NCBI GenBank assembly: GCA_009659925.1
Contig: PUXW01000011.1
Coordinates: 1 to 32,953, forward strand
Direction: 5' to 3'
DNA from: Nitratiruptor sp.
GTDB lineage: Bacteria > Campylobacterota > Campylobacteria > Campylobacterales > Nitratiruptoraceae
Length of the DNA stretch: 32,953 nt
Positions 3,206-21,833 of the stretch are shown piece by piece (position 1 is the first letter of the stretch; each line of letters begins with the position of its first letter). Under the pieces are notes generated by a model, which was not told the DNA's origin, searched no databases, and was given only the letters and a program-made list of their open reading frames with translations. A program made the position numbers and the translations under genes.

Positions 3206-3784
3206 TCACATTCCTTTGTGGTGGACTACCATCTTCCCATCCTCCCACTGGAGATAGATCAGATACTCTCCCCGCGTCCCGTTGTCCTCCTTGGGGGTGG
3301 GGAGGCGCTCTCCAGGCAGAGGGATTTGGCGGCGCTTTTTGCCCCCGCTTTGCCGTTGGATGACGAGGAACTTGTTCACCTGGGAGATCAGGGGATCGGC
3401 GAAGATATACTTGATCCCCTCGAAGTCGACTGGGAAGGTGAACTTATAGGCCGATTCGAGGCGGACCAGGGTGGCGTTGCGTTCGTGGACGAAATAGGCG
3501 ACGTAGGGCATTGGAATCTGGTGGAGGGAGTTGGTGGTTTGAAGCATCAGGATCGAATAGTCCCGGTTGCTCAAGGGGATCACCTGGATGGAGCGGGCTT
3601 TCAAGAGATCTCGGTGCAAGAGGGCAAAGAGGGCCTCTTGGGTGGCGATTCTATGGGTGTGGCGTTGGAGGGAGGCGTTGAGAATCTCCTGGGTGGCCAG
3701 GGCTTTGTAGAGGAAGAGGAGGACCGTAGCGGTCAGGGCGATGGAGATGAGGAGTTCGATGAGGGTGAAGGCCCGCCTATGCAT
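3206..3784 (-). CDS. Prepilin-type N-terminal cleavage/methylation protein (PulJ/PilW-like)
   Basis: The 192-residue protein begins with a very short basic leader followed by 'AFTLIELLISIALTATVLLFL', the type III prepilin peptidase signal with Glu at mature position +5 and a hydrophobic helix to about residue 26. The residue before the cleavage site is Ala rather than the usual Gly. The rest is a globular, mostly polar domain with a lysine/arginine-rich loop near 150 ('GGKKRRQ'). Such minor pseudopilins prime type IV pilus or type II secretion fibres at the inner membrane. The ATG shares one base with the TGA of the upstream prepilin gene (TGATG), so the two are coupled. No other secretion genes are in the window. 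Confidence 0.8.
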   Translation of the reverse strand: MHRRAFTLIELLISIALTATVLLFLYKALATQEILNASLQRHTHRIATQEALFALLHRDLLKARSIQVIPLSNRDYSILMLQTTNSLHQIPMPYVAYFVHERNATLVRLESAYKFTFPVDFEGIKYIFADPLISQVNKFLVIQRQSGGKKRRQIPLPGERLPTPKEDNGTRGEYLIYLQWEDGKMVVHHKGM

Positions 3785-4218
3785 CAGGGCATTTCCAATA
3801 GGTAGAGGTAGTCTCCTCCATCCTCGTTTTGGATCGAGACTTTGATGAGGGAGAGGCCCAGGGGATTTTCATATCTCTCTTCTGGCTCTTCCTGGCTCTG
3901 ATTGAACTCCGTAAGAGTTGGCATGGTGATCTTGACCTCTTGCTCTTGGTATCGGAAGGAGCTTTTGAGGAGGTGGCGCAATTCGTCGTCGAGGACATTG
4001 AGTCCGAGAAAATCCTCTAGACGCTTGCTCAAGCGGTTCCAAGTTGGATTGCGGTGGGCTGCGACAAGGGCGATGTATTCGCTCATACGCCCCTTCGTTT
4101 CGACACGCTGGAGGAGCGTGGCGTTTTCACCACCGCTGCGCAAGAGGGCGACTCCGACCAGGGCTAGGATCATGACGGCGATGACCACTTCGATTAGGGT
4201 GAAGGCTCGGTGTTGCAT
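3784..4218 (-). CDS. Prepilin-type N-terminal cleavage/methylation protein (minor pseudopilin)
   Basis: The 144-residue protein starts 'MQHRAFTLIEVVIAVMILALV', again a short basic leader with Ala before the cleavage point, F+1 and E+5, and one hydrophobic helix. The C-terminal domain is acidic with no recognised motif. It is probably a minor pseudopilin partner of the following gene. The start codon is fixed by the leader signal, yet no purine-rich ribosome site precedes it. A perfect TATAAT box lies only six bases before the ATG, which suggests a leaderless transcript. Confidence 0.78.
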   Translation of the reverse strand: MQHRAFTLIEVVIAVMILALVGVALLRSGGENATLLQRVETKGRMSEYIALVAAHRNPTWNRLSKRLEDFLGLNVLDDELRHLLKSSFRYQEQEVKITMPTLTEFNQSQEEPEERYENPLGLSLIKVSIQNEDGGDYLYLLEMP

Positions 4219-4263: not shown

Positions 4264-5280
4264 CTAGTCGAGGTTGGGTTTGGGAGTGGCTGGGGTTTCG
4301 GGAGGGAGGATGGGGTAGGTGATGGAGGGCTTTTCCCCGGTGAGGGCTTGGAAAAAGGTGGCGATAGATTCAATCTGCTCTTTGCTCAACTCCTTGCCAA
4401 GCTGGGTTGTCCCCATGATCGCGATGGCCTCTTTGATGTCGTAGGTGGCTCCGTTGTGAAAATAGGGAGCCGTTTCGAGGATGTTGCGCAGGGTCGGTAC
4501 CTTGACCAATCCGTTGGAGTCCCCCTTGAAATCGCCGATATGGGCATACTTGTACTTCCCGATAAGCGGGAACTTCTGCATACTGCCACCTCCAACTCCA
4601 ACACCGTTATGGCAGCTAGCACACCCCACTTCGATGAAGGTTTTGAGTCCCTCTTTTTCGGCATCGCTGAGGGCTTTCGCATCGCCGTTTAAAAAGTCGT
4701 CGAAGCGGCTTGGCGTTACCAGGGTGCGCTCAAAGGCCCCAATCGCCTTTCCGATGGTCTCAATGGTGATGGGTTCATTGGGGAAGGCCTTGGCAAAGGC
4801 CCTCTTGTACTCGGGGATCGACTGGACTACGCGCACCGCATCCTCGGCCTTCATATCCATTTCTGGGGGGGCTTGGATGGGCCCTGTAGCCTGCTCTTCT
4901 AGATCCTTGGCCCGTCCATCCCAGAACTGACGGATATTGAAGACGGCGTTATAGACGGTTGGGGAGTTGAGGTGGTGGGGGTTTTGGCGCCATTTGTGTC
5001 CCGTGGCCACGGGAACATTGTCGTCACCCCCCAGGGCCAGGTTGTGGCAAGTGTTGCAGCTGATAAGACCGCTCTTGGAGAGGCGGGGATCGAAGTAGAG
5101 CTTTTTGCCCAATTCTATCTTTTCGGGGGTGAGGGGGTTTTTGGGGTTGTCGATGAGCTGGTAGAGTTTGGTGAGATCCTTGGGGATAGGTTTGAGCCCT
5201 GCCTCCTTGGCCTGTTGGATCAAGTCGGCACTGGCAAAGGTGGCAAGCAAGGCCGCTACGGTGAGGGTACGCAACTTCAT
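4264..5280 (-). CDS. Di-haem cytochrome c peroxidase, periplasmic
   Basis: With the ATG at 5280 the protein is 338 residues, the usual size for the CcpA/MauG family. A strong AAAGGAGGT site right before it decides the start over an in-frame ATG 12 codons upstream. Residues 1-18 form a signal peptide ending 'TFASA'. The two haem sites are CNTCH (75-79) and CASCH (220-224). A methionine ligand for the high-potential haem is likely in 'AIMGTTQLG', and 'GHKWRQNPHHLNSPTVYNAVFN' residues form the peroxidatic-haem region (from 94). The enzyme reduces hydrogen peroxide to water with electrons from cytochrome c in the periplasm. A good promoter lies upstream, so it can be expressed apart from the multihaem gene. 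The Pro-rich C-terminus (about 20 residues) is unremarkable. Confidence 0.93.
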   Translation of the reverse strand: MKLRTLTVAALLATFASADLIQQAKEAGLKPIPKDLTKLYQLIDNPKNPLTPEKIELGKKLYFDPRLSKSGLISCNTCHNLALGGDDNVPVATGHKWRQNPHHLNSPTVYNAVFNIRQFWDGRAKDLEEQATGPIQAPPEMDMKAEDAVRVVQSIPEYKRAFAKAFPNEPITIETIGKAIGAFERTLVTPSRFDDFLNGDAKALSDAEKEGLKTFIEVGCASCHNGVGVGGGSMQKFPLIGKYKYAHIGDFKGDSNGLVKVPTLRNILETAPYFHNGATYDIKEAIAIMGTTQLGKELSKEQIESIATFFQALTGEKPSITYPILPPETPATPKPNLD

Positions 5281-5306
5281 GGGACCTCCTTTCTCGTTTG
5301 GTGGGC

Positions 5307-5335
5307 AGTATAGCACAAGTGACGAAAAATTTCAA
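5307..5335 (-). promoter_or_regulatory. Sigma70-type promoter of the cytochrome c peroxidase gene
   Basis: Minus-strand TTGAAA (5335-5330), 17 bases, TATACT (5312-5307). The predicted start is near 5300, leaving a leader of about 20 bases that contains the AAAGGAGGT ribosome site. Confidence 0.68.
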
Positions 5336-5390: not shown

Positions 5391-7727
5391 TCACCGGCGC
5401 CGCCTCCACCACCACAATCCCCCGCCAAAGAGGGCCATAGCCCCTAGGAGCTGGACCCAGGCCCCAAGGAGCAAGTTCTTGTGCAAGATCTCCTTGTGGG
5501 TTGGGTTGTCGATTTTCACCCCTGCGGCCTCGGCCACGTGGCTTAGCAGCGAGACGGCCAGATCCTTATCCGGGATAGTCTCGTGGCAGGCAAGACAGAC
5601 ACCCCGGCGATCCAGCTTGGCTAGCTCCGCCGGGCCAAGGGCCCTGGAGCCCTCCCAGTGGTGGCCCACAGTGACCAGCTGGGTGTAGTTCTCGTCGATG
5701 ATCCGGGACCAGTCGAAGGTGAGCTTTGGAATGGCCGGCTTCTGGATCTGGATCCGTTTGGGGATGATCTGGCCATCGGCGCTCATGAGGTCGATCACCA
5801 GATCCCGGCTTGGATCGCCAAAGAGTTTGCCACCACCGATGCCAAAGCCCATGGCCTTGGGGTTATTATGGCAGCTCTCACAGCTTCTCGCCTCCTTTTG
5901 GACCGTGTGGGAGTGGACCGGGGCCATGTCGATGGCCAGGACGCTTTGGTTGTTGTCCTGGACCGAAAAGATGTGGTTTTGCAAGAGGGCCTTGCCATCC
6001 GGAGCGATGACGGTGATGGTGGTCTGGCATCCAGGAATAAGGGGAGAGATGCGCCCTTCCCCGTTGAGGCCGAGGATTGGATCCTCCCAGCGCAGATAGC
6101 TCCTGGTTTCGGTAACATGGCCGTCGATGAGGTAGTCCTTGAGGCTCTTGCGCTTGGCGGCGTCGGTGCCGTGGATGTCGTGGGCCTGGGCTACCGCCAG
6201 CCAGTCGATCCCCTGTTTGCCATCGCTATAGTCGATCTTCACATGGCATCCGTAGCACTGGGGGGCCCAGGTATCGTGGCAGCTGTAGCACTCCATGGTT
6301 TGGAGGTGCCGATCCACCTGCTCCATGGCTACCTGCCCGGCCAAGCTGAGGCGCCCTTCTTGGGCGAGCTTTTTGAGGGGGGTCAGGCGTAGATCCTTGC
6401 CGCTGGCCAGGTGGACCACGACCTCCTCTCCATCCCGGACCACATTGCCAAAGGGGTTGCCCCTGGTGGTGAGCAGATAGCCATCCTTAGGCTCATAAGG
6501 GGTTCCCTTGCCCAGATACTCGGCCAGGGTTTTAGCAAGGCCCCTGGGTTTGCCATCGAGCTGCTTGCCCCGCTCCTCCCCATATCCCAAGGGAAGCTCC
6601 CAAGGGTAGCGCTGGATGGTCCCGTGGCAATCCTCACACTCGATCTCCACCGCCCCCAGGGTTGTGCCCACTAAGAAGCCATCTCCGTGCATCTCCAAAC
6701 TGGTGTGGCAGTCCTGGCAGAGCATCCCCTTCTTGTAGTGGACATCTTCGCGCATGTGGAGGTAGTGTTTGGTGTGGATCTTGGGCTGGCCTCGCCCATG
6801 TTCGTCGAAGGTTGGGTTGTAGGCGGTCTCCATGAGCCCCTGGTAGCTGACCCCGATCCGCTTGCCCCGGTTGTGGCAGGTGGTGCAGGTTTCCACGGGG
6901 ATCCCGCTGTAGCTGAGCCCATGGATGTGGACCTTGGCCTCCCGGGTGGCTTGGATCTGGTGGGTGAGGAGGTGGCCAGGCTCCTTGGGGATGGTGGGAT
7001 CACCCCCCTCGTAGTAGCCTTCGTTGGAGTAGGGGATGTGGCAGCTGCTGCATCCCATCCCCCGATAGTCCCCCCGGCGACTCCGTCCCTTGGAGGCGGT
7101 ATGGCAGCGCAGACACTCCTGGCGCAGGTAGGTATAGGCAGCAAGTTCAGGGTTTTGGACTACCTCCTGGGCACTCGGAGCGGGAGGGAGCTCTTCCATT
7201 TTGGAGACATAGACGTTTGGGTTGGCCTTGGCCCGATCGGCCATGTAGCGCTGGTAGGTGGTGGTTCCCAGACGCTGGTGGAGTCGGTTGGAGAGGGTGT
7301 AGTTGGCATATTTGTGCTCCATCCCCTCCAAGGCGCCGAAGCTCCAGAGGGTCCCCTGGATCTTGCCCGCTTCGGTGTTCATGAGGGAGTTCCACTGGGC
7401 CGCGACCTGCTCCTGATGACACTGGCCACAGGTGTGCTCGTTGATCCAGGCACTTCCAGGATCGGGATAGAACTCCTTGGGCCCCTTGGCTTGTTGGAAG
7501 TAGGGAATAGTACCCTGGTGGGCCCTCTCCTTGGTATGGGCTTCGGGATCGCCCCCGTGGCAGACGATGCAGCTATTGTCCGGATAACCAGCCTTGGCGG
7601 CTACCTGGGCGATGGCTTTGGCCATGCCGCTGGAGGGATCCCGGATCGGTTCGATCCCCTGGTGGCAGGTGAGGCAGTTGTTGGCCCAGAGGGAGAGGGC
7701 AGTAAGGAGTATGAGCAGAATGTGCAT
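5391..7727 (-). CDS. Dodecahaem c-type cytochrome with C-terminal membrane anchor
   Basis: The 778-residue protein has a signal peptide (1-15), twelve CxxCH haem motifs and a C-terminal membrane helix (about 752-773) followed by RRRR, so the bulk should face the periplasm. The motifs start at C18, C53, C100, C205, C226, C281, C337, C364, C480, C491, C616 and C711. Haems 9 and 10 are only 11 residues apart, while 369-479 and 496-615 are long haem-free, beta-rich stretches. Many additional His residues could be distal ligands. I do not recognise a named family. The layout differs from NrfA (5 haems), MccA sulfite reductase and octahaem HAO/OTR proteins. It could be a quinol-linked electron carrier or a reductase of a sulfur or nitrogen oxyanion. 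It sits directly upstream of the cytochrome c peroxidase gene on the same strand. Its ATG has an AAGGGGAA site and a good promoter. Confidence 0.9.
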
Positions 7728-7754
7728 AACTTCCCCTTATCATCTCTACCGCCT

Positions 7755-7783
7755 ATGATACAATATCCACGAACAAAACTCAA
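7755..7783 (-). promoter_or_regulatory. Promoter of the dodecahaem cytochrome gene, in the divergent gap to purT
   Basis: Minus-strand TTGAGT (7783-7778), 17 bases, TATCAT (7760-7755). On the plus strand the same spot reads TATGATACAAT (7754-7764), a possible but weaker -10 for purT with no good -35. The two promoters would therefore overlap. Confidence 0.55.
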
Positions 7784-7802
7784 TGTGTGCCAAAGGAAAA
7801 GC

Positions 7803-9101
7803 ATGGAACTGACCACCCCCCTCAAACACAACTCCATCAAGTTCTTGCTCTTAGGGAGCGGGGAGCTTGGGAAAGAGGTGGCCATCGAAGCCCAGCGTTT
7901 GGGGATCGAGGTGGTGGCCGTCGACCGCTATCCCGATGCCCCAGCCCACCAGGTGGCCCATCGCAGCTATGTGGTGGATATGCAAGATCGGGAGGAGCTC
8001 TTGGAGGTGATCTTCCGGGAGCGACCTACCTACATCCTCCCAGAGATCGAAGCCATCAATATCGACGCCCTCTTGGAGGCGGAGCGTCTTGGGTTCGAAG
8101 TCATTCCCAACGCCGAGGCGGTCAGGAAGACGATGAACCGCAAACATATCCGCCGTTTCGTTGCTGAGGAGTTGGGGCTTCCCACCAGTGCCTACCGGTT
8201 TGTGGCAAGTTTGGAGGAGCTGCGCCAAGCGGCTCAGGAGCTGGGGTTCCCCTGTGTCGTCAAGCCGATTATGAGCTCTTCGGGCTATGGCCAGAGCATT
8301 GTTCATAGAGCTGAAGAGTTGGAAGGGGCCTGGGAGCGGGCCAAGGAGGCCCGGGGCGATGCGAGTGAGCTCATCGTCGAAGAGTTCATCGATTTCGACT
8401 ACGAGATTACCCTCTTGACCGCACGCAATGGGGAGGAGACCATCTTTTGTGAACCCATCGGCCACATCCAAAAGGATGGGGATTACATCTTCAGCTGGCA
8501 GCCCATGGAGATGGCTCCCAAGGTCCTCAGACGGGCCAAGGAGATCGCCAAGGAGGTGACCGATGGCCTTGGAGGACGGGGGATCTTCGGGGTGGAACTC
8601 TTCATCAAGGGGGATCTGGTCTATTTCAGCGAGGTCTCACCCCGCCCCCACGATACGGGGATGGTGACTCTCGTTACCCAGAGTCAGAGCGAATTTGCCC
8701 TCCATGTACGGGCGGTTCTGGGGCTTCCTCTAGGCTATCGCCACATCAGCGGGGGGGCGAGTGGGGCCTACAAGGCCAAATCGGCCAGTGCCAACCCCCT
8801 CTTTCACATCGACCCCGCCCTCTTTGGCAAGGATACTATGGTGCGCCTCTTTGGCAAGCCCCGAAGCCATCCTGGGCGGCGTATGGGGGTGGTCCTGGTC
8901 ATGGGGGAGCCAAAGAGCGCTTTGGAACGGGCCAAGGAGCTGGTGGAGCGCATCGAAGATAGCCCGGCGCCCAAACCCCAACCCCCCGTCCCAGAGGTTT
9001 CCAAAACCCGAGAGAAGGAGGTTGAAGCTTCTCCCGAAGAGGAGCCGACCATCGAGGTGAAGCGGGGTAGCCTCTTGGAGCGGCTCTTAAGGCTCTTTTG
9101 A
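7803..9101 (+). CDS. purT: Formate-dependent phosphoribosylglycinamide formyltransferase (GAR transformylase 2)
   Basis: PurT makes formyl-GAR from GAR, formate and ATP in purine synthesis, in the cytoplasm. The ATG at 7803 follows AAAGGA. The open frame continues far upstream, but that part is antisense to the cytochrome gene. The protein is 432 residues. It has the family N-terminus '[21 protein letters not shown]', 'VPEIEAI'-like '[10 protein letters not shown]', the ATP-grasp region with '[15 protein letters not shown]', and the metal-site segment '[17 protein letters not shown]'. Typical PurT is about 390 residues. Here the last 45 residues are a Pro/Glu/Lys-rich tail ending in a short amphipathic Leu/Arg segment, which is unusual. 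It is the first gene of an overlapping three-gene plus-strand operon (TGATG with the next). Confidence 0.95.
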
Positions 9102-12311: not shown

Positions 12312-12742
12312 CGCCCCTCCACCTTTTGCATCTGGGCGAGGATCTGCTCCTTGTCCAGGGGGAGCTGCTCGGCCATGGTGTAGAGGACCTGCTCCTCTTT
12401 CATGTTGTGCTGTTGGGTCATGATCATGAAGGTCTCACCATATCCCAGGGCTTTTTGGCGATCCTTAGCCTCGATGGCCTCTCCCAGGGCGTCGATGATT
12501 CCCCGGATCTGGTTGTGCTCCATCTTCATCACATGGATGGGCCCTTCACCTCCTCCAAGGAACTCCTCCATCTTGGGGAAGAGGACCTCCTCTTCCATGG
12601 CGAAGTGGCGCAGCATCGCCTCCTTGAAGGGGACGAAACGCTCTAGAGCCAGATCCCAGGCCTGGGCTGCAATGGCCTCTTCGAGGGGGGCATAGAGAGC
12701 GTCACAATCCCGATGGTCTTGGGTCATGAATTCCTTGATCAT
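12308..12742 (-). CDS. Hemerythrin HHE domain protein
   Basis: The 144-residue four-helix protein carries the expected di-iron ligands: H10 ('QDHRDCD'), H46 and E50 ('RHFAMEEEVLFP'), H76 ('MEHNQIRG'), and H112 with E116 ('QQHNMKEEQVLY'). Such proteins bind O2 or NO at a non-haem di-iron site. Stand-alone cytoplasmic forms are implicated in NO or oxygen sensing, storage or repair of iron-sulfur proteins. No signal peptide. ATGA overlap with the ArnT-like gene upstream and with DUF2249 downstream. Confidence 0.9.
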   Translation of the reverse strand: MIKEFMTQDHRDCDALYAPLEEAIAAQAWDLALERFVPFKEAMLRHFAMEEEVLFPKMEEFLGGGEGPIHVMKMEHNQIRGIIDALGEAIEAKDRQKALGYGETFMIMTQQHNMKEEQVLYTMAEQLPLDKEQILAQMQKVEGR

Positions 12743-14226
12743 TTCTGCTCCTTGATGAGGGCGATAGCGCCCCGTTGGTAGAGGATGGTGGCCCCGGGAT
12801 AGTTGGGCAGGGCCGATCTCTTGATGAGTATTATAGCACTTTTGTCGTCAGCAATGGTCTCAGCGTAGAAGTAGAAGCTTGGAACATTGATCCCCTCCAT
12901 TTTGATCTTCCACCCTCGCTCCTTGGCTAGCAGAGCCGCCTCTTTGATGGGCCCTTCGGCGGCCTCGGCATAGACCTTGGCGATGAAGAAGTTCAAAGAG
13001 ATCAGCGTGATGAAGGCGGCGACGGTGATGGCCCTCCGTTTGCCAAGACGCAGCAAGGCAACCCCGACCAAGAGGGCAAAAAGAAAGTAGGCCACATACC
13101 CGACTCCAAAATCGAGGGCTTGGATGATGAAGTACTCATAGCTTCCAGGTTTGGTGTACTCCAGAACAATTGGCTTGATGAAGGGGAGCAGGGCGAAGAT
13201 GGCGTGAAAGAGCCAATAGGGCAGCAGCAGTGCCGTTTTGGAGCGAATCTGATCGAAATAGAGGGCCATGAGGATGAAGAGGGGGGTATAGCCGTAAATT
13301 ATATAGTGGGGGAGTTTGGTCTTGGAAAGGGAGAAGAAGATGAAGACGAAGAGAAACCAGATCCCCAGATAGCGTGTGAGGGGTGCGGCAAACCACTCCT
13401 TGATCTTCGTGATGGTCTTGATGGCGATGGAGGTGAAGGGAGTGAGGCCAACCAGCAAGACGATGAGGTAGTAAAAAATTGGTCCCCTGTGGCCCTCCAT
13501 CGCCTGGGAGCTAAAGCGGGAGAGGTTGTGTTTGAGGAAAAACCCTTCGACGAACTTGTGTCCTTGCTCCAGATATTCGGCTATGTACCAGGGGGCGGCG
13601 ATGGCCAGGAAGATGGCGATACCGATGGGATCGAGGATGGAGCGCAGCCACAAGCGCCACTCTTTGGCGAGGAAGAGGCCGCTAACCGCCAGAGGGATTA
13701 AAATGGCCACAGGTCCCTTGGTCAAAGTCCCCAGGGCGATGGCGGCGTAGGTGGCGTAGAGAAAGATCTTTTGGCGGCTCTCATAGTAGCGATAGAAGCA
13801 GAACATCGAAGCGGCGATGAAGAGGTTGAGGAGGGCATCGGCGATAGCCGCCTTGGCGATGATGGAGATCTGGATCGATCCCACCATGAAGAGGGTGGCC
13901 AGGTAGGCTCTTGCTTGGTCGAAATGGCGGACGCTGAAGCGGTAGATCAGATAGGCCCAAGCCGTGGCGACCAGGGCACTTGGCAGACGCATGGCGACTT
14001 CGTTGAGCCCGAAAATCGAAGCGCTCAGAGCCTGGAACCAATAGATGAGGATCGGTTTATCGAAGCGTAGTGCCCCGTTGAGGTAGGTGGTGATAAAGTC
14101 CCTTCGCTCCAACATCTCCCGGGTCGCTTCGCTGAAGGCCCCCTCATCCAGATTGAAGAGGGGGTAGTAGCCAAGGGTGGCGTAGAAGCTGAGGAAGGTG
14201 AGGGCCAGAAGGGCTACTCTATCCAT
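12739..14226 (-). CDS. ArnT-like family 39 glycosyltransferase, inner membrane
   Basis: With the ATG at 14226 the protein is 495 residues (the frame is open 28 codons further but that lies inside the PAP2 gene). The first periplasmic loop holds the Asp-Glu pair 'NLDEGAFSEATREMLER', followed by 'LRFDKPILIYWFQALS'. Ten or more membrane helices follow and a C-terminal soluble domain begins near residue 400. This is the pattern of ArnT/Pmt-type enzymes that move a sugar from undecaprenyl phosphate to lipid A, a glycan or a protein. The donor (aminoarabinose, galactosamine or other) cannot be told. It overlaps the PAP2 phosphatase gene by eight bases, consistent with lipid A or undecaprenyl-phosphate chemistry. 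Confidence 0.88.
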   Translation of the reverse strand: MDRVALLALTFLSFYATLGYYPLFNLDEGAFSEATREMLERRDFITTYLNGALRFDKPILIYWFQALSASIFGLNEVAMRLPSALVATAWAYLIYRFSVRHFDQARAYLATLFMVGSIQISIIAKAAIADALLNLFIAASMFCFYRYYESRQKIFLYATYAAIALGTLTKGPVAILIPLAVSGLFLAKEWRLWLRSILDPIGIAIFLAIAAPWYIAEYLEQGHKFVEGFFLKHNLSRFSSQAMEGHRGPIFYYLIVLLVGLTPFTSIAIKTITKIKEWFAAPLTRYLGIWFLFVFIFFSLSKTKLPHYIIYGYTPLFILMALYFDQIRSKTALLLPYWLFHAIFALLPFIKPIVLEYTKPGSYEYFIIQALDFGVGYVAYFLFALLVGVALLRLGKRRAITVAAFITLISLNFFIAKVYAEAAEGPIKEAALLAKERGWKIKMEGINVPSFYFYAETIADDKSAIILIKRSALPNYPGATILYQRGAIALIKEQK

Positions 14227-14785
14227 CGAAGATCCTCCGGTAAAGCCACCAGGCTGTGAGGGCACCGATGAGGGAGCCAATGAGCACATCGCTTGGGTAG
14301 TGTTTGCCAAGAATGACCCGGCTCAGGGCCACCAGCCCGGCCAGGGCGAGCCAGAGGAGCCGGTAGCGGGGAAAGAGGAGGGCCAGGGAGACCCCGAGGG
14401 CGAAGGCGGTGGCCGAGTGGCCCGATGGCATCGACCAGTAGCTGGCCTTGAAGGTCAAAGGCTCGAAGCCGTAGAACCCTTCGTTGAAGAGGAGCTTGGG
14501 CCTGGCCCGACCGATGAGGGGTTTGAGGATATCGACGATGAGGCCAGAAAGGGCCACCGAAGCCAGGACATAGAGGGCCTTTTTGGCCTGCTGGGGGTTG
14601 CGGGTGCGCCATAACAAATAGAGCCCCAGGGAGATTGCCAGGGCAAAAGCGGCATTTCCCAAAGCGGTGATGGCCCGCCACCCAGGGGAGGCGTAGTGGT
14701 GGAGGATCGTGGCCAGGAGGGGATCGAACCAGAAAAAGGTAACTCCAGCCAGGAGTAGGGTTATTCCAATCACAACGGCAACCAT
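14219..14785 (-). CDS. PAP2 family membrane phosphatase
   Basis: The 188-residue protein with about six helices carries the three acid-phosphatase motifs: 'KPLIGRARP' (88-96), 'PSGH' (120-123) and 'SRVILGKHYPSD' (155-166), with catalytic H123 and H162 and D166. Such enzymes are lipid A phosphatases (LpxE/LpxF-like) or undecaprenyl-pyrophosphate phosphatases acting at the periplasmic face. The ArnT-like partner downstream and the lpxL-type gene divergently upstream favour lipid A or carrier-lipid work. No clear ribosome site precedes the ATG, and a GATAAT box ends seven bases before it, so it may be another leaderless start. Confidence 0.88.
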   Translation of the reverse strand: MVAVVIGITLLLAGVTFFWFDPLLATILHHYASPGWRAITALGNAAFALAISLGLYLLWRTRNPQQAKKALYVLASVALSGLIVDILKPLIGRARPKLLFNEGFYGFEPLTFKASYWSMPSGHSATAFALGVSLALLFPRYRLLWLALAGLVALSRVILGKHYPSDVLIGSLIGALTAWWLYRRIFDG

Positions 14786-14788
14786 AGG

Positions 14789-14801
14789 AGCGATTATCGC
14801 T
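14789..14801. repeat. Short palindrome in the divergent gap between the PAP2 gene and lpxL
   Basis: AGCGAT-T-ATCGCT is a perfect 6-bp inverted repeat with a one-base centre, four bases from the PAP2 start. It contains GATAAT on the minus strand (14798-14793), a -10 candidate for the PAP2 operon. It may be an operator or a chance palindrome. Confidence 0.3.
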
Positions 14802-14807
14802 TAAATA

Positions 14808-14816
14808 TGGTAAGAT
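14808..14816 (+). promoter_or_regulatory. Extended -10 promoter candidate for the lipid A/LPS operon
   Basis: TGG followed by TAAGAT (14811-14816) has the TGn extension. No convincing -35 is seen. The predicted start is near 14823, close to the AAAAAAGGG ribosome site of lpxL. Confidence 0.35.
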
Positions 14817-14835
14817 AAAGCTAAAAAAGGGTCCG

Positions 14836-15669
14836 ATGGGTCGCTGGATCGAATATCTCGCCCTCAAAACCCTCCTCGATTTCGCCAAGATCGCTCCACC
14901 TTCCATGATCTTTAGGATAAGCGATCTTCTAGCCCGGGGACTTTTCCACCTAGATGGGAGGCGGCGCGCTATTACGATAGCCAACCTCCAGATGGCCCTT
15001 GGACTTCCTCCAGCAGAGGCCTTCCAAATGGCCCGGCGCACCTACAGGCAGTTTGGACGCAGTTTGGGAGAGATGGTTCTGCTGGCGGTGGATCGCTTCG
15101 ACTTTGAGGGTATCGATGGGCGAGAACTCCAAAAGATTGCCCACCTCTCCCCTCCCTTCATCTTCATCACCGCCCATATTGGCAACTGGGAGGCCCTGGC
15201 CCACTATATCGCCCAGCGAATCCATCCCATCGCCTTGGTCGGTCGCGCTGGAAACAATCGGCTCATCGAAGAGCGGATCGTCCAGCCCCTGCGCAACCGC
15301 TATGGCAACCGTTTGATCCACAAGCACCAGGCGGCCCGGGAACTTGTCCGGGCCCTGCGCTCTGGGCAAAGTGTGGGGCTTTTGCTAGACCAGCGGGGGG
15401 GTCAAGCCGGGGTGTGGGTCGACTTTTTCAACCGCCCGGCCTCGACCCTGCCCACTGCTTATACCCTACAAAAGCGCTTCCGGGTGCCTATCGTCCCCCT
15501 CTTTCTGGTGCGCCAGGGAGCGAAATTGGTCTTGCGGGTCTTCGATCCCCTTCTCTGGGAGGAGTGTGACGAGATCACCCACACCAGGAGGATCAACCAG
15601 GTCTATGAGGAGATCATCCGGGAGTATCCGGATCAGTGGTTCTGGATGCACGAGCGGTGGCGGACATGA
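14836..15669 (+). CDS. lpxL: Lipid A biosynthesis lauroyl/myristoyl-type acyltransferase (LpxL/HtrB family)
   Basis: The 277-residue protein has an N-terminal hydrophobic anchor, the HX4E catalytic motif 'HIGNWE' (H114, E119), 'GLLLDQR' in the substrate site, and the family ending 'YPDQWFWMHERW'. It adds a secondary acyl chain to the Kdo2-lipid A precursor at the cytoplasmic face of the inner membrane, using acyl-ACP. The length is slightly below the 300 or so typical of LpxL, as is common in small epsilon-type enzymes. The ATG has AAAAAAGGG at good spacing. An ATGA overlap with the next gene starts the chain of seven coupled LPS genes. Whether it is LpxL or LpxM cannot be decided. Confidence 0.88.
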   Translation: MGRWIEYLALKTLLDFAKIAPPSMIFRISDLLARGLFHLDGRRRAITIANLQMALGLPPAEAFQMARRTYRQFGRSLGEMVLLAVDRFDFEGIDGRELQKIAHLSPPFIFITAHIGNWEALAHYIAQRIHPIALVGRAGNNRLIEERIVQPLRNRYGNRLIHKHQAARELVRALRSGQSVGLLLDQRGGQAGVWVDFFNRPASTLPTAYTLQKRFRVPIVPLFLVRQGAKLVLRVFDPLLWEECDEITHTRRINQVYEEIIREYPDQWFWMHERWRT

Positions 15670-16550
15670 GGGCTTTAATTGTTAGTGATGGACGCAGGGG
15701 CCACCTCAACCAGGCCCTGGCCTTTTGTCATTACGCCGGCTTGGAGTATGAGATCGTGGAGGTGCGCTTTCGCTCCCGGCTTGCCAAGGGGCTGGGTTAT
15801 GGGCTGGATTGGCTGGGACTTTACACCAGGAGACTTTTTGAGCCTTTTGCCCTCCGAGGCCCCTTCGATCTGGTGGTGGGAGCAGGAAGCTCCACCTACT
15901 ACGCCCTCAAACTCCTGGCCAGGGAGTATGGGGCCAAGAGCGTGGCCCTCATGAATCCCAAGGGCTTTCGCAAGGATTTCGACCTCATCTTCACCCAGCC
16001 CCACGACAAGGGGGAGGGTATTGAGATCCCCGTCAATTTCGCCTACGCCAAGGCAACCGGCCTCGTCGAACTTGGCCCTCGGGATGTGGCCTTTGTGGTG
16101 GGCGGGCCCAACAAGCGTTTTGCCATGGAGCCAGAAGAGATCGAGCAGGTGGCAGAGTTCCTCTTTGCCAATTTCGATGGCAAGCGGGTTTTGAGCACCT
16201 CCCCCAGAACGCCCCGGGCCATTGAGGAGCTCTTGGAGGGCTACCCGTGGGATTACAAGGTGATCTACTCCAAGAATCCCATCAACCCCATCGGCGACTT
16301 CCTCCAGGCTGGCTATGTTTTCATCACCCAGGATAGCACCTCCATGATCAGCGAGGCCCTCAGTGGCGGTCGGGCGGCGGTGGAGGTGGTGAAGCTCAAG
16401 GGGGATGGGGGGAAGTTCCAGCGCTTCGTGGAGTACTTGGCCCAGGAGGGGTATCTCCACCTCTTCGATGGCGCCCTGGGGAATGCCCGGCGCAAAGTCG
16501 ATTTTGGCTTCGTGCGGGCTCTCGTCGCCGATCTGGAGCAGAGGCCATGA
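15666..16550 (+). CDS. ELM1-like (DUF1022) family protein, putative glycosyltransferase
   Basis: The 294-residue protein starts at the ATG inside the lpxL stop. It begins 'MRALIVSDGRRGHLNQALAF', contains 'LVVGAGSSTYYALKLL' and 'NPKGFRKDFDLIFTQPHDKG', then 'VAFVVGGPNK' and 'VFITQDSTSMISEAL', the diagnostic set of the family named after plant ELM1. Bacterial members have a GT-B-like two-domain fold and usually sit in LPS gene clusters. A sugar-nucleotide-dependent transfer is suspected but not shown. Coupled by ATGA to both neighbours. Confidence 0.82.
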   Translation: MRALIVSDGRRGHLNQALAFCHYAGLEYEIVEVRFRSRLAKGLGYGLDWLGLYTRRLFEPFALRGPFDLVVGAGSSTYYALKLLAREYGAKSVALMNPKGFRKDFDLIFTQPHDKGEGIEIPVNFAYAKATGLVELGPRDVAFVVGGPNKRFAMEPEEIEQVAEFLFANFDGKRVLSTSPRTPRAIEELLEGYPWDYKVIYSKNPINPIGDFLQAGYVFITQDSTSMISEALSGGRAAVEVVKLKGDGGKFQRFVEYLAQEGYLHLFDGALGNARRKVDFGFVRALVADLEQRP

Positions 16551-17608
16551 GGATCCTTCAGCTGTTGCCAGAGCTCAACGAGGGGGGCGTAGAGCGGGGG
16601 GTGGTGGAGTTCAATCGGGAATTGGTAAAACGGGGCCATGAGAGCTATGTCATCAGCGCTGGCGGCAGACTCGTGGAGCAGATCGAAGCCGATGGAGGAG
16701 TCCACATCACAGCCCCCATCGCCTCCAAGAACCCCCTCACCGCCCCGATGCGGGCAGCCAGACTCAAGGAGATTATTGAAGAGATCGATCCCCAGATCAT
16801 CCATGCCAGGAGTCGGGTGCCAGCTTGGCTCGCCTACTGGGTCAAGGGAGAGCGCCCCTTCGTCACGACGGTCCATGGGTTCTACTCGGTCTCGCCCTAT
16901 AGCGCCATCATGGCCAAGGGGGATCGGGTCATCTGTGTCAGCCGCCCGATCCGGGAGTATGTGTTGGCCAACTATCGGGTCGATCCAGAGCGGCTGCGCT
17001 TGGTGCATCGAGGGGTCGATCTGGAGCGCTTCGATCCAACCCGCATCGATTGGGGCTTCGTCCAGGAGTTCAAGAGGCGCTGGGATCTGGAGAATCGCTT
17101 CGTCATCGCCTCCATCGGGCGGGTGACCCAGCTGAAAAACTATGAGCTCCTCATCGAGGCGATGGGGCATATCGATGGGGTGCTGTTGATCGTGGGAGGG
17201 GTCCATCCCAGGCGCCAGGATTATTATCGCCGTCTCCTGGATCTGGTGGATCGGCTGGGGGTGAGGGATAGAGTGCGCTTTGTCGGGAGCCAGCAGCAGA
17301 TGGCGGAAATCTATGCCTTGAGCGATCTGGTGGTCAGCGCCTCCAAGCGGCCCGAGAGCTTCGGGCGCACCCTGGTGGAGGCGATGGCGATGGAGACCCC
17401 GATTCTTGCCGCCAGACATGGGGGGAGCTTGGATATCGTACCCGATAGAAGGTGGCTCTTCGATCCTGGAAGCCTCACCGAGCTTGTGGAGGGCATCAGG
17501 GCCATCCGATCTGGGCCACCTCAAGGATTGCGGGAGTATGTGGCGCGCCACTTCTCCCTGGAGCAGATGGTGGCCAAGACCCTGGAGGTCTACAAGGAGC
17601 TGGTGTGA
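16547..17608 (+). CDS. Family 4 glycosyltransferase (LPS core/outer glycan)
   Basis: The 353-residue GT-B protein begins 'MRILQLLPELNEGGVERGV', typical of GT4 donors/acceptors, with 'IIHARSRVPAWLAY' in the N-domain. The C-domain has 'IASIGRVTQLKNYELLIEAM', 'VRFVGSQQQMAEIYALSDLVVSAS' residues and the E-x7-E motif in 'PESFGRTLVEAM', which binds the nucleotide-sugar. It acts at the cytoplasmic face of the inner membrane. Sugar donor and position are unknown. ATGA overlap upstream, GTGA overlap downstream. Confidence 0.9.
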   Translation: MRILQLLPELNEGGVERGVVEFNRELVKRGHESYVISAGGRLVEQIEADGGVHITAPIASKNPLTAPMRAARLKEIIEEIDPQIIHARSRVPAWLAYWVKGERPFVTTVHGFYSVSPYSAIMAKGDRVICVSRPIREYVLANYRVDPERLRLVHRGVDLERFDPTRIDWGFVQEFKRRWDLENRFVIASIGRVTQLKNYELLIEAMGHIDGVLLIVGGVHPRRQDYYRRLLDLVDRLGVRDRVRFVGSQQQMAEIYALSDLVVSASKRPESFGRTLVEAMAMETPILAARHGGSLDIVPDRRWLFDPGSLTELVEGIRAIRSGPPQGLREYVARHFSLEQMVAKTLEVYKELV

Positions 17609-18600
17609 GGATCGTCCAGTTCATGGCGTCAAAACGCTATGTCGGGGCTGAGCGCAGTTTCGTGGAGCTGTGCAACGAGTTGGCCAAGGAGGATGAGGTG
17701 AGCGCCCTGGTGGTGCGGGGGTGCGAATTCATCGATCGCTTCGATCCCAGGGTCCAGGTGATCGAACTGCGCTCCAACCCCTCCCGATACAACCCTTGGC
17801 TCTACTGGGAGCTCAAAACTCTCCTGCAAAAGCTCGATCCCCACATCCTTCATGTCCACTCCGCCAAGGCTGCCGAGATCGCCTACCGCCTCCAAAAGAT
17901 CCACCCCATCCCCTACATCGCCACCAAACGCAACTCCGAGCGCCGCTCCAAGAAGGCGATCTACTTCGATCGGGCCCCCTTCGCCGTGGGGGTGAGCCAG
18001 CAGGTGAGCGAGACGATCCACAACCCCAACAAGGCCACCATCTCCAACGGCATCGAGCCCGTCGAGTTAGGGGAGGTGGTCAAGGAGCCCGTTTTCACCA
18101 TGGTGGCGGTGGGGGTCCTGGAGCCCCGCAAGGGTTTTGACGATCTCATCGCCCAGGTGGCCCGGCTCGACTTTGACTTTCGCCTCAAGATCGTCGGGGA
18201 GGGGCGAGAGGGAAAGAGGCTCCAAGAGCTCATCGCCAGCTTGGGGCTTGAGAGGAAGGTGGAGCTCTTGGGCCAGCGGGAGGATGTCCCCCAGATTCTC
18301 GCCAGCGCCCATTTGCAAATCATCAACTCCCACAGGGAGGGGCTCAGCCGAGTGCTTATCGAGGGGCTCTTCTACTCGGATCTCATCATCTCCACCAAGG
18401 TGGCGGGAAGCCTGGAGATCTTGGAAGAGGAGTTCCTCTTCGACTATGGTACAGCGGCCAGCAAGATCGCCCAGATCTACCACGACTACGAGGGCTATAA
18501 GCAGGCCTTCGCCCCCATTCGGGCCAAGAGGGAGTTTTTCACCCTCCAACGGGTGGCCCGGGAGTATCGCCAGCTCTATAGGAGGCTTGCCCGTGTGTAG
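17605..18600 (+). CDS. Family 4 glycosyltransferase, GTG start
   Basis: The 331-residue protein is best started at GTG 17605, which gives the GT4-like N-terminus 'MRIVQFMASKRYVGAERSF'. AAGGAG lies five bases before, and the GTGA overlaps the stop of the preceding gene. The C-domain shows 'VAVGVLEPRKGFDDLI', 'VELLGQREDVPQILASAH', and the E-x7-E motif 'EGLSRVLIEGL'. It is only distantly similar to its GT4 neighbour by eye, so a different linkage is expected. Eight-base overlap with the asnB-like gene. Confidence 0.88.
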   Translation: MRIVQFMASKRYVGAERSFVELCNELAKEDEVSALVVRGCEFIDRFDPRVQVIELRSNPSRYNPWLYWELKTLLQKLDPHILHVHSAKAAEIAYRLQKIHPIPYIATKRNSERRSKKAIYFDRAPFAVGVSQQVSETIHNPNKATISNGIEPVELGEVVKEPVFTMVAVGVLEPRKGFDDLIAQVARLDFDFRLKIVGEGREGKRLQELIASLGLERKVELLGQREDVPQILASAHLQIINSHREGLSRVLIEGLFYSDLIISTKVAGSLEILEEEFLFDYGTAASKIAQIYHDYEGYKQAFAPIRAKREFFTLQRVAREYRQLYRRLARV

Positions 18601-20299
18601 GATCTTCGGTTACTGGGGGGATGATGGGCGCTGGCTCGATGCCATGGAGGTGCCCTTGCGCCCTGGGGGGCCGGATCATTATGGGCGCTATGTGGACGAT
18701 CGGGTCAGTTTGGGGCACAGGAGGCTTGCCATCCTCGATTTGAGGGAGGCGGCCAACCAGCCCTTTTCTTTTGAGCATCTGGTCATGAGCTACAACGGCG
18801 AGGTCTACAACTTCCGCCAGATCCGCCAGGAGCTTGGAGAGTACGATTTTTACACCGACTCCGATACCGAGGTCCTCATCAAGGCCTTCCACAAGTGGGG
18901 TTTGAAGGCCCTGGAGCGCTTTGTCGGGATGTTCGCCATCGCCTTGTGGGACAAGAGCTCGGGCAAACTCCACCTCATCCGGGACCGCTTGGGGGTCAAG
19001 CCCCTCTACTACCACCACCATCAAGGCCGCTTCCTCTTTGCCAGCGAGCTCAAGGGTCTTCTGGCCCATCCCGATTTTCCCAAAAGGATCGATCCCAAAG
19101 CGGCGGCCCTCTTTTTCCAGCTGGGCTACATCCCCACCCCCCATACCATCTACCAGCACACCTACAAACTCGAACCGGGCACGATCCTCACCTTCGACGG
19201 AAAAGGGATCCACAAAGAGCGCTATTGGGACTGGGCATCGATCCTCGATAGGCCAAAGCTCGGCTACGAGGAGGCGAGGGAGGCTTTGGAACCCCTCTTG
19301 CGGGAGGCCTTCGAGTTGCGGATGGTAGCCGATGTAGATGTGGGGATCTTTCTCAGCGGCGGGGTGGATAGCGCCCTGGTGAGTGCCCTGCTGGCCCATC
19401 ATCGCCCCAAGACCTTTACCATCGGTTTTGATAATCCCAAGTACGACGAGGCCCCCTTTGCCCGGGAGGTGGCCCACTATCTTGGCTGTGAGCACCATGA
19501 GCGCTCCTTCGATGAAGGGGAGCTTAGAGCGAAGTTACCCGAGATGGTCCAAGTCTTCGACGAGCCTTTTGGCGACCCTTCGGCCCTGCCGATGCTCCTT
19601 CTGGCCCAATTTGCCAAGGAGTCGGTGCGGGTGGCGCTCAGTGCCGATGGGGCGGACGAGCTCTTTTGGGGCTATCCCATCAACTTCAAGTGGGCTGCTA
19701 GGTATCGTTCGTTGCGCAAACTCCGCTCTCTCGCCCCCTTGTTGCGGCGTATGCCCTTGGTGGAGCTCAAAAAGCGGGGCTATCTGGCCAGTGGGGATCT
19801 GCTCGCCTTCAAGTTGGCGATGCGCTACCGCTTCTATCCGGACGAGACCACCCAGGCCTATTTGCTCCAGGAGCCACCAAGCCGAGAGGTCCTGGAGGCC
19901 CTCTTCCTCTTGGATTTGCGCTACTTCCTGATCGACGATGTCCTGGTGAAGGTGGATCGGGCCAGCATGGCCCACTCCCTGGAGGCAAGAGAGCCCTTTT
20001 TAGACCATCGTATCGTGGAGTTTGCCTTGCGGCTGCCGCCAGAGCTCAAGTGGCACAAGGCGATCCTCAAGGAGCTCCTGGAGCGCTATTTGCCTCCCAA
20101 ACTCGTACATCGGCCAAAGCAGGGCTTTAGCGTGCCCATCAAGGAGTGGTTGCGGGAATCGCTGGGAGCGGAGGCCAGGAGAAAGGTGCAAGAGCCTTCG
20201 ATGCTCCACGAGATCTTGCGCACGAGGAAGTTGGGGGGAGATTATAAACGGCTCTGGCTGGCTTACATCTTTCGACTATGGGAGGAGCGATGGGGGTGA
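18593..20299 (+). CDS. Asparagine synthase-like glutamine amidotransferase in LPS cluster
   Basis: The 568-residue protein starts with GTG at 18593 (AGGAGG seven bases upstream), so the nucleophile Cys becomes residue 2, as required in class II glutamine amidotransferases. Residue 3 is Arg where most family members have Gly (MCGI). The glutaminase domain shows 'GHRRLAILDL', 'YNGEVYNF' and 'RDRLGVKPLYYH'. The synthetase domain has the ATP PP-loop 'LSGGVDSAL' (255-260) and 'LSADGADELFWGY'. The family amidates a carboxylate, either aspartate or, in surface-glycan clusters (WbpS-type), a uronic acid. The position between glycosyltransferases and near a UDP-glucuronate 4-epimerase favours sugar amidation, but true asparagine synthesis cannot be excluded. 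Confidence 0.9.
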   Translation: MCRIFGYWGDDGRWLDAMEVPLRPGGPDHYGRYVDDRVSLGHRRLAILDLREAANQPFSFEHLVMSYNGEVYNFRQIRQELGEYDFYTDSDTEVLIKAFHKWGLKALERFVGMFAIALWDKSSGKLHLIRDRLGVKPLYYHHHQGRFLFASELKGLLAHPDFPKRIDPKAAALFFQLGYIPTPHTIYQHTYKLEPGTILTFDGKGIHKERYWDWASILDRPKLGYEEAREALEPLLREAFELRMVADVDVGIFLSGGVDSALVSALLAHHRPKTFTIGFDNPKYDEAPFAREVAHYLGCEHHERSFDEGELRAKLPEMVQVFDEPFGDPSALPMLLLAQFAKESVRVALSADGADELFWGYPINFKWAARYRSLRKLRSLAPLLRRMPLVELKKRGYLASGDLLAFKLAMRYRFYPDETTQAYLLQEPPSREVLEALFLLDLRYFLIDDVLVKVDRASMAHSLEAREPFLDHRIVEFALRLPPELKWHKAILKELLERYLPPKLVHRPKQGFSVPIKEWLRESLGAEARRKVQEPSMLHEILRTRKLGGDYKRLWLAYIFRLWEERWG

Positions 20300-20919
20300 T
20301 CTTGGGACTTGGGGATTGCAACATGGGGGGAGCCAACGGCTACACGGGCCCCACCTACCTCGATCTGGTAGCTGAGGCCCTTGGCATGGAGCTGCGCAAC
20401 CGGGCCATCACCATGTCCACCACGAGGGAGGGACGGATCATTTTCGACGAGGAGAAGGAAGCCGATCTGGTGGTGGTGGCCTACGGCCTGGTGGATAGCT
20501 GGCGCACCTTCCGCTACGCCCCCTATGTCCTCTACTACCCCGACAACCCGTGGCGCAAATTGGCCCGCAAGGCGGTGAAGAAGTACAAGAAGCTGGCCCG
20601 CAGCCTCGGCCTCAACCGGCTCCTTGGCCAGAAGTATGTGGTCCCCCCCGCCGAGTACCTGGACCATCTGGACCACATGGCCCAGTCGAGCCGGCGACTC
20701 CTCCTCGTCGAGACCCCGCCTCATTTGAGTGAGACCTTCCGCAATCCAGACATTCGCTTCTACAACCAGCTCATGGCCCAGATTGCTGGGCGCTACGACC
20801 ATGTCGATCTGGTTCCCCTCTACGATCTTATCGAGCCCCAGCGCCACTACTTGGACGATATCCACCTCAACCGGGCCGGCTACCAACTGGTGGCCCAGGA
20901 GATATTGGAGCTGCTATGA
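20290..20919 (+). CDS. SGNH/GDSL-like protein with altered catalytic residues
   Basis: The 209-residue protein is started at ATG 20290 (GGAGG just upstream). An ATG at 20278 and a GTG at 20296 are alternatives. Block I reads G-D-C-N (C10) where hydrolases have G-D-S, and block III reads 'AYGLVDSW' where G-x-N-D is usual. The C-terminal 'DDIHLNRAGYQ' keeps the D-x-x-H pair (D189, H192). The fold is therefore SGNH-like, but the nucleophile is Cys and the oxyanion Asn is missing. It may be a divergent acetyl-esterase of the glycan or a non-catalytic member. No signal peptide. It sits between asnB and the GT9 gene with overlaps at both ends. Confidence 0.72.
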   Translation: MGVILGLGDCNMGGANGYTGPTYLDLVAEALGMELRNRAITMSTTREGRIIFDEEKEADLVVVAYGLVDSWRTFRYAPYVLYYPDNPWRKLARKAVKKYKKLARSLGLNRLLGQKYVVPPAEYLDHLDHMAQSSRRLLLVETPPHLSETFRNPDIRFYNQLMAQIAGRYDHVDLVPLYDLIEPQRHYLDDIHLNRAGYQLVAQEILELL

Positions 20920-21833
20920 TCGGGGTCTATCGCTACAGCGCCCTGGGAGATATCGCCGCCGCTTTACCCGTCCTGCGGGCTTTCAAAGAGCCTCCCATAA
21001 TCCTCACCTCCCCCATGGGGTACGAGCTGCTCAAAGATGAGTTCGAGGAGTTTATCGTCCTCCCTTCAAAAAGGGTCTGGGATTTGATCCCTTTCATCAC
21101 CAAGGCCCGGAGGCGAATAGACTCCTTCATCGACTTGCAAAACAACGATCGCAGCCGCTTTATCCGCCTCTTCTTCCCCGAAGTCTTTACCAACCGGGCC
21201 ATTCCGTGGAGAGGAGGAGCTAGCGAGTATTTCCATGCCATCGCAGCTCAAAGCGGGGTAGTGGGAGAGCTGGACTACTCCTTCACCCCCAAGGAGCCAA
21301 CCTACATCGTCCTCAACACCGGCTCCAGCCCCAAATGGCACTCCAAACGGCTTCCAGATTACAAGTGGCAAGAATTTAGTCGGATTCTCCACGAGCGTTT
21401 CGGCCTCCCCTTCCTCCTTACGGGGGATCGGAGTGAGCGGGAGTATGTGGAGCATATCGCCCGCCAGCTGGTGGGACGGGTGGAGGTGGTGGCGGGTAAA
21501 ACCAGTATCGCTGAGCTCAAGGAGCTTTTGGGCCAAGCCTTTTTGGTGGTCTCCACCGATTCGGCCCCCATGCACATCGCTGCGGTCCAGAAGACCCCGA
21601 CTATTGGCCTTTTTGGCGCTACCAACTGGATCAACTCCGCCCCCTTCGGTCCCTGGAGCGTAGCCCTTTACGATCGGCGCCTCTTCCCCGATGGCCGCCC
21701 CTTCCCCTCTAATCGGAGGGAGGTGGGTCCCTACTATGAGGGAATCGATCTGGAGGAGGGGTTGCAGCGCTTGGAGGGTTACTTGTACTCGAGAAAGCCC
21801 CCCCGTCCCAGAAGATCGACGCCGTTGATGTAG
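20916..21833 (+). CDS. Family 9 glycosyltransferase (heptosyltransferase-like)
   Basis: The 305-residue protein has the GT9 N-terminus 'MIGVYRYSALGDIAAALPVLRAF', the middle 'IVLNTGSSPKWHSKRLP', and the diagnostic C-domain signature 'STDSAPMHIAAVQKTPTIGLFG', close to the 'DSGPMHIAAA' of WaaC/WaaF. It transfers a heptose (ADP-heptose donor) or related sugar to the LPS inner core in the cytoplasm. ATGA overlap with the preceding gene. The last 18 codons overlap the end of the opposite-strand phosphoethanolamine transferase gene by 55 bases and form a basic Pro/Arg-rich tail that may have arisen by stop-codon loss. Confidence 0.9.
   Translation: MIGVYRYSALGDIAAALPVLRAFKEPPIILTSPMGYELLKDEFEEFIVLPSKRVWDLIPFITKARRRIDSFIDLQNNDRSRFIRLFFPEVFTNRAIPWRGGASEYFHAIAAQSGVVGELDYSFTPKEPTYIVLNTGSSPKWHSKRLPDYKWQEFSRILHERFGLPFLLTGDRSEREYVEHIARQLVGRVEVVAGKTSIAELKELLGQAFLVVSTDSAPMHIAAVQKTPTIGLFGATNWINSAPFGPWSVALYDRRLFPDGRPFPSNRREVGPYYEGIDLEEGLQRLEGYLYSRKPPRPRRSTPLM

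Follow-up and report, generated by a model that had tools for sequence, protein, structure and literature searches.

A stand-alone 12-haem cytochrome related to ExtM in Nitratiruptor sp., a putative periplasmic multihaem reductase

Background

ExtM (GSU2935) of Geobacter is a 12-haem cytochrome (PMC5877670) which has been tabulated as an extracellular protein (PMC13194489). It belongs to the ext gene cluster, which is associated with selenite and tellurite. In the literature searched, no published activity was found for ExtM itself, the only gene knocked out there being extI. Multihaem reductases with unusual haem sites may be matured by dedicated enzymes; the extra SirEFG and NrfEFG sets of Shewanella and E. 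coli serve catalytic proteins of this type (PMC6976685). Our literature search found no paper describing a stand-alone ExtM-like family.

Here, we analyze a cytochrome gene in a stretch of 32,953 nucleotides from the vent bacterium Nitratiruptor sp. (in the following, the window). An earlier note on this DNA had described its product as an unassigned, membrane-anchored cytochrome c with 12 haems, possibly a new respiratory reductase or an electron conduit. Geobacter ExtM enters the comparison through its NCBIfam model and through ExtM-like proteins of other Campylobacterota only.

Results and discussion

Architecture of the predicted protein

The reading frame begins with ATG (Table 1). The 12 CxxCH motifs counted in the earlier note were all located, at residues 18, 53, 100, 205, 226, 281, 337, 364, 480, 491, 616, and 711, corresponding to spacings of 35, 47, 105, 21, 55, 56, 27, 116, 11, 125, and 95 residues. 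Their occurrence by chance is excluded, because the Cys and His content predicts far fewer than one CxxCH per 778 residues and full-length relatives keep 12 haem sites. The 11-residue spacing of the pair at 480/491, likewise remarked upon before, is kept across the family alignment. Instead of the two long haem-free, beta-rich inserts proposed earlier, there are four haem-free stretches of at least about 90 residues: 369–479 and 496–615, which are beta-rich in a haem-less AlphaFold model (mean pLDDT 78.7, pTM 0.80; strands at 416–448 and 487–602, terminal helix at 741–777), 105–204, which is mostly helical in this model, and 621–710.

Table 1 Features of the cytochrome locus in the window
Feature	Position	Strand	Basis or remark
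Dodecahaem ExtM-like cytochrome c gene	5391..7727	minus	778 aa, with a signal peptide, 12 CxxCH motifs and a membrane helix at the C-terminus
Probable N-terminal signal peptide/hydrophobic segment (residues 1–17, to first CxxCH)	7677..7727	minus	Sequence; inference
Haem 3 CxxCH (residues 100–104) with invariant M116/T118/E119/G121/K122 (residues 100–125)	7353..7430	minus	Family alignment
Tight haem pair (residues 480–495; CxxCH 480/491)	6243..6290	minus	Sequence, family alignment, ExtM-like alignment
Cys567, sole non-haem Cys	6027..6029	minus	Invariant in family (58 members) and in ExtM-like proteins
C-terminal membrane helix (about residues 741–778), Arg-rich end	5394..5507	minus	AlphaFold model, hydropathy
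Dihaem cytochrome c peroxidase gene (CcpA/MauG-type)	4264..5316	minus	74 bp downstream of cytochrome gene, same strand

From the signal and the CxxCH motifs, the cytochrome is clearly predicted to be secreted to the periplasm; AxA-type cleavable signals are visible in relatives in the family alignment. The membrane helix reported in the earlier note is present, ending in WWWRRRR, and its hydropathy peak (19-residue window) is 1.62, as compared to 1.8–3.0 in anchored relatives. Judging from this topology, the C-terminal anchor would place the haem domain in the periplasm. Part of the cytochrome gene is also covered by a long reading frame on the plus strand (6687–9101). Similarity of this frame to a real gene, of the PurT/ATP-grasp family, is confined to its 3' half, and its 5' portion probably lacks stop codons by chance.

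Searches against Pfam returned only generic cytochrome c domains and the MtrC/MtrF domain II/IV (PF22113). That the haem layout fits neither NrfA, MccA nor octahaem HAO had been stated before and is borne out by the sequence: with a single Cys (C567) outside the CxxCH motifs, neither the CxxCK of NrfA nor the CX11-17CH of MccA/SirA is possible, and the HAO model PF13447 has no match in the protein or the genome. PDB sequence searches with the window protein and with a family profile gave no match. Structural comparison of the 778-aa model by Foldseek and VIA-align returned only noise, as did Foldseek with the beta-rich fragment 372–612 (model pTM 0.46), which does not show a new fold.

Relationship to ExtM

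The protein does not remain unassigned. Its best curated match is the NCBIfam ExtM model NF040943 (E = 2.7e-72), covering residues 187–629 and an N-terminal stretch; the score of 244 bits does not reach the curated cut-off of 800 for this equivalog. Other Campylobacterota encode ExtM-like proteins (loci L116, L117, and L118) of 583–607 aa with 12 CxxCH motifs each, which score 264–278 bits against the same model and thus likewise stay under the cut-off. All 12 CxxCH motifs of the window cytochrome are co-linear with theirs at 28% identity, as are Met116 and Cys567, and BLASTP aligns residues 53–721 with the L118 protein (1e-50). The ExtN and ExtO models (NF040967, NF040968) match only partially, around residues 467–624 (E about 1e-20); a Campylobacterota ExtN-like protein, unlike the window cytochrome, has eight CxxCH motifs, lacks the N-terminal haems and has no equivalent of Cys567.

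Partners of the extHIJKLMNOPQS-type cluster were found neither among the neighbours in the window nor among those of the Campylobacterales orthologues. Given the score of 244 against 800 bits and the lack of an ext operon, the protein is a relative of ExtM, not ExtM itself. By its full-length homology to the broad ExtM superfamily, it classifies at the sequence level as a dodecahaem c-type cytochrome of this superfamily, forming a separate, stand-alone branch.

The ExtM-like genes in L116, L117, and L118 each adjoin an ExtN-like cytochrome gene. A scan of the neighbours in L118 showed that genes for an ExtP-like cytochrome b and a Rieske protein follow there, and an ExtH-like rhodanese is encoded near the ExtM-like gene in L116. 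The ext-like clusters of Campylobacterota (L116:7976-19215, L117:6777-10696, L118:255-9348) contain 12-haem ExtM-like and 8-haem ExtN-like cytochromes. Further components, which differ between the loci, are an ExtP-like cytochrome b, a Rieske protein, an operon for a PhsA-like molybdoenzyme and a rhodanese resembling ExtH. Such clusters could constitute a respiratory module for thiosulfate/polysulfide or selenium compounds.

Distribution and phylogeny

Identity within the family is 46–76%. Orthologues (49–76% identity) turned up both in Campylobacterales, where 22 of 59 further genomes searched had one, in part on contig fragments, and in a broad range of GTDB species. The GTDB search yielded 138 confirmed stretches, of which the best 80 were retained; holders belong to the Campylobacterota, Aquificota (Hydrogenothermaceae), Bacteroidota, Planctomycetota, Deinococcota/Thermaceae, and many Alpha- and Gammaproteobacteria. 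The family is common to many sulfur-oxidising and marine bacteria. Only partial matches turned up in the plasmid collection; they come from Sphingobium/Sphingopyxis and cover 24% of the length with an identity of about 29%.

In a quick maximum likelihood tree, the ExtM-like proteins split off on a very long branch, whose position is unsure given its length. The C-terminally anchored forms of Campylobacterota, Aquificota, Bacteroidota, and Planctomycetota cluster apart from the soluble forms (SH-aLRT 94), and the anchor is absent from proteobacterial and Deinococcota members. The lone soluble-looking protein in the anchored group (L026) ends at a contig end. Phyla are mixed inside the anchored group, suggesting horizontal transfer, with the reservation that several of the sequences come from metagenome bins. 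A soluble branch occurs in Campylobacterota (L109 in G045, L110 in G048), flanked by genes for small proteins which, judged by sequence, are thioredoxin-like.

Among 60 Campylobacterales genomes, presence of the cytochrome outside the genus tracks NirS (p = 0.03) and NosZ (p = 0.02) and, more weakly, SoxB (p = 0.09), in tests that ignore phylogeny, count related genomes separately and give p values per family with several families tried. No association with HAO was found in these genomes. Of 37 holder genomes from many phyla, reached through phyla other than Campylobacterota and counted as holders only, 21 have SoxB over the cut-off and 12 a NosZ propeller domain; the Bacteroidota and Planctomycetota holders have no SoxB over the cut-off. 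The SoxB count leans towards sulfur-oxidising bacteria.

Gene neighbourhood

The peroxidase gene downstream of the cytochrome gene (Table 1) is located five to nine genes away in relatives, or is absent from the neighbourhood read there. Since direct adjacency is not kept, CcpA is probably not a functional partner, and no conserved partner gene was found in the Campylobacterota neighbourhoods. Beside the cytochrome region, positions 3206–4218 carry two minor-pseudopilin-like genes (GspI-like and GspJ-like, with weak scores). Further along the window, lipid A/LPS and glycan genes (12739–24350) code for ArnT-like, acyltransferase, glycosyltransferase, asparagine-synthase-like amidotransferase, heptosyltransferase-like, and sugar epimerase proteins.

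The setting differs by group. In Alphaproteobacteria, a Rap1a-like small protein is encoded downstream, always at position +1 in the 36 loci where this family was found, and in most loci genes of a Crp/Fnr regulator and of CcmF/NrfE, CcmH/NrfF, and CcmI are located upstream in divergent orientation (the CcmF/CcmH/CcmI set, usually with the regulator, in L056, L057, L058, L061, L082, L083, and L100). In Gammaproteobacteria, the downstream genes instead encode a TPR protein and a protein of 202 aa. A count of CcmF covered 12 holder genomes, eight of them alphaproteobacterial, and in seven of these eight at least one further full-length CcmF is encoded elsewhere, so the neighbouring Ccm set is an extra one there; a single full-length CcmF occurs in L040 (Alphaproteobacteria), L079 (Thermaceae), and three gammaproteobacterial genomes. 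The alphaproteobacterial arrangement of a Ccm set and a Crp/Fnr regulator recalls, by analogy, the sirA and nrfA neighbourhoods.

Conserved residues

Across 58 family members, nine His residues outside the CxxCH motifs (H70, H256, H318, H330, H347, H474, H607, H690, and H744) are at least 98% conserved, and H439 is conserved at 91%; Met35, Met116, and Lys122 are invariant, as is Glu119 of the haem-3 motif. Because 12 bis-His haems would need 12 distal His residues and only nine or ten are conserved, a different group, or nothing, probably occupies the distal position of two or three haems.

Haem 3 is followed by a near-universal S/A-L-M-x-T-E-x-G-K stretch. When its motif was tallied across 94 relatives, 28 were found to have CX4CH instead of CX2CH at this site, namely most gammaproteobacterial and some alphaproteobacterial members (e.g., L058, L059, L067, and L080). 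Many members from Alphaproteobacteria have canonical CxxCH at each of the 12 sites, so an odd motif does not explain the extra lyase of this group.

Proposed function

We tentatively favour a role as a putative multi-electron periplasmic reductase of the ExtM superfamily; our first guess for the substrate, and the weakest step of the proposal, is a sulfur or selenium oxyanion. From the features described above we infer a periplasmic multihaem reductase, inner-membrane-anchored (or soluble), possibly acting on sulfur or selenium oxyanions. Electrons would enter from the periplasmic cytochrome or quinol pool, travel along the haem chain of the dodecahaem cytochrome, and pass, more than one at a time, to a small-molecule acceptor at a single haem that is not bis-His-ligated. 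The best candidate for this site would be haem 3 with its M116-x-T-E-x-G-K motif; Cys567, as a haem ligand or a sulfur- or selenium-binding group, would be the second. On this view, its role might be that of a multi-electron reductase of the periplasm or of a detoxifying reductase. Four observations argue for catalysis: non-haem residues are strongly conserved, distal His residues are too few, haem 3 has its characteristic motif, and Alphaproteobacteria have an extra lyase set. The arguments for sulfur or selenium chemistry are each weak: the protein is related to ExtM, the ExtM-like proteins have rhodanese and PhsA-like neighbours, Cys567 is invariant, and the holders are biased towards SoxB. 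Counting against the proposal, the 12 sites are all canonical in many alphaproteobacterial members, one alphaproteobacterial holder has a single CcmF, the Bacteroidota and Planctomycetota holders have no SoxB over the cut-off, and within Campylobacterales NirS and NosZ co-occur with the cytochrome no less strongly than SoxB does.

A more specific version, which we consider unlikely to hold as a whole, would define a new class of multihaem reductases with the active site at haem 3 (Met116/Glu119/Lys122) or at a Cys567-associated haem, with its own NrfEFG-like lyase in Alphaproteobacteria, horizontally spread through vent and marine sulfur oxidisers, and reducing a sulfur or selenium oxyanion.

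Nearly as likely as a reductase is a pure electron-transfer or charge-storage cytochrome, which would pass electrons from quinol or bc1 to peroxidase, NosZ, NirS or SoxXA and have no substrate chemistry of its own. The stand-alone gene with no conserved partners found in Campylobacterota, the adjacent peroxidase gene, the co-occurrence with NirS and NosZ within Campylobacterales, and the existence of both anchored and soluble variants are all consistent with such a relay. Electron-transfer cytochromes, however, usually drift faster, whereas here the non-haem residues are unusually conserved (about 50% identity between phyla), among them the invariant Cys567 and the motif at haem 3; the extra alphaproteobacterial lyase set moreover suggests a special cofactor site, and the adjacency of the peroxidase gene is not kept in relatives.

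A selenite or tellurite reductase in the strict sense of ExtM, doing the same job as in the Geobacter ext cluster, is improbable, although NF040943 is the best curated match and the Campylobacterota ExtM-like proteins are accompanied by ExtN-, ExtP-, Rieske-, and ExtH-like genes: the score lies far under the cut-off, none of these genes neighbours the window gene, a long branch of the tree separates it from the ExtM-like proteins, and the literature searched offered no activity for ExtM. There is just as slim a chance of a denitrification-linked enzyme or electron donor (for NO, N2O or nitrite), for which the co-occurrence with NirS and NosZ in Campylobacterales speaks, but which has to contend with the NosZ propeller domain being found in only a third of the holders reached through other phyla and with a co-occurrence test that is blind to phylogeny. 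An extracellular electron conduit of the outer membrane is the least probable role, since the PF22113 match (E = 1.5e-12) and the extracellular listing of Geobacter ExtM are set against the lack of a lipobox ahead of the first CxxCH, a C-terminal helix of the inner-membrane type, soluble orthologues in several phyla, and no porin recognised adjacent to the gene in the window or in Campylobacterota neighbourhoods.

In the multi-electron reductase that we prefer, one haem would be special, as indicated by the second lyase set found in Alphaproteobacteria and by the exchange between CX2CH and CX4CH at haem 3. The stand-alone gene offers a compact system for testing the function of the ExtM fold outside the ext operon, and it links a Geobacter cytochrome of one gene cluster to a widespread family of microaerobic, denitrifying and sulfur-oxidising bacteria which are not known metal reducers.

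Comparison with known systems

With the decahaem outer-membrane cytochromes MtrC/MtrF, the window cytochrome shares the PF22113 stretch (residues 203–370), but it differs in haem count, has no lipoprotein anchor, and no porin partner was seen nearby. The octahaem sulfite reductase MccA/SirA and the pentahaem nitrite reductase NrfA are also periplasmic multihaem proteins, and their neighbourhood of an NrfEFG/SirEFG-like lyase set and a Crp-type regulator is shared with part of the family only; in contrast to them, the window cytochrome has 12 haems, and no sequence similarity to them was detected. Compared with ExtM, by way of the Campylobacterota ExtM-like proteins, it is about 170–195 residues longer than the latter, C-terminally anchored, placed in a separate clade and encoded without an ext operon, whereas the 12 haems, their order including the tight pair, and the residues M116 and C567 are shared with these ExtM-like proteins.
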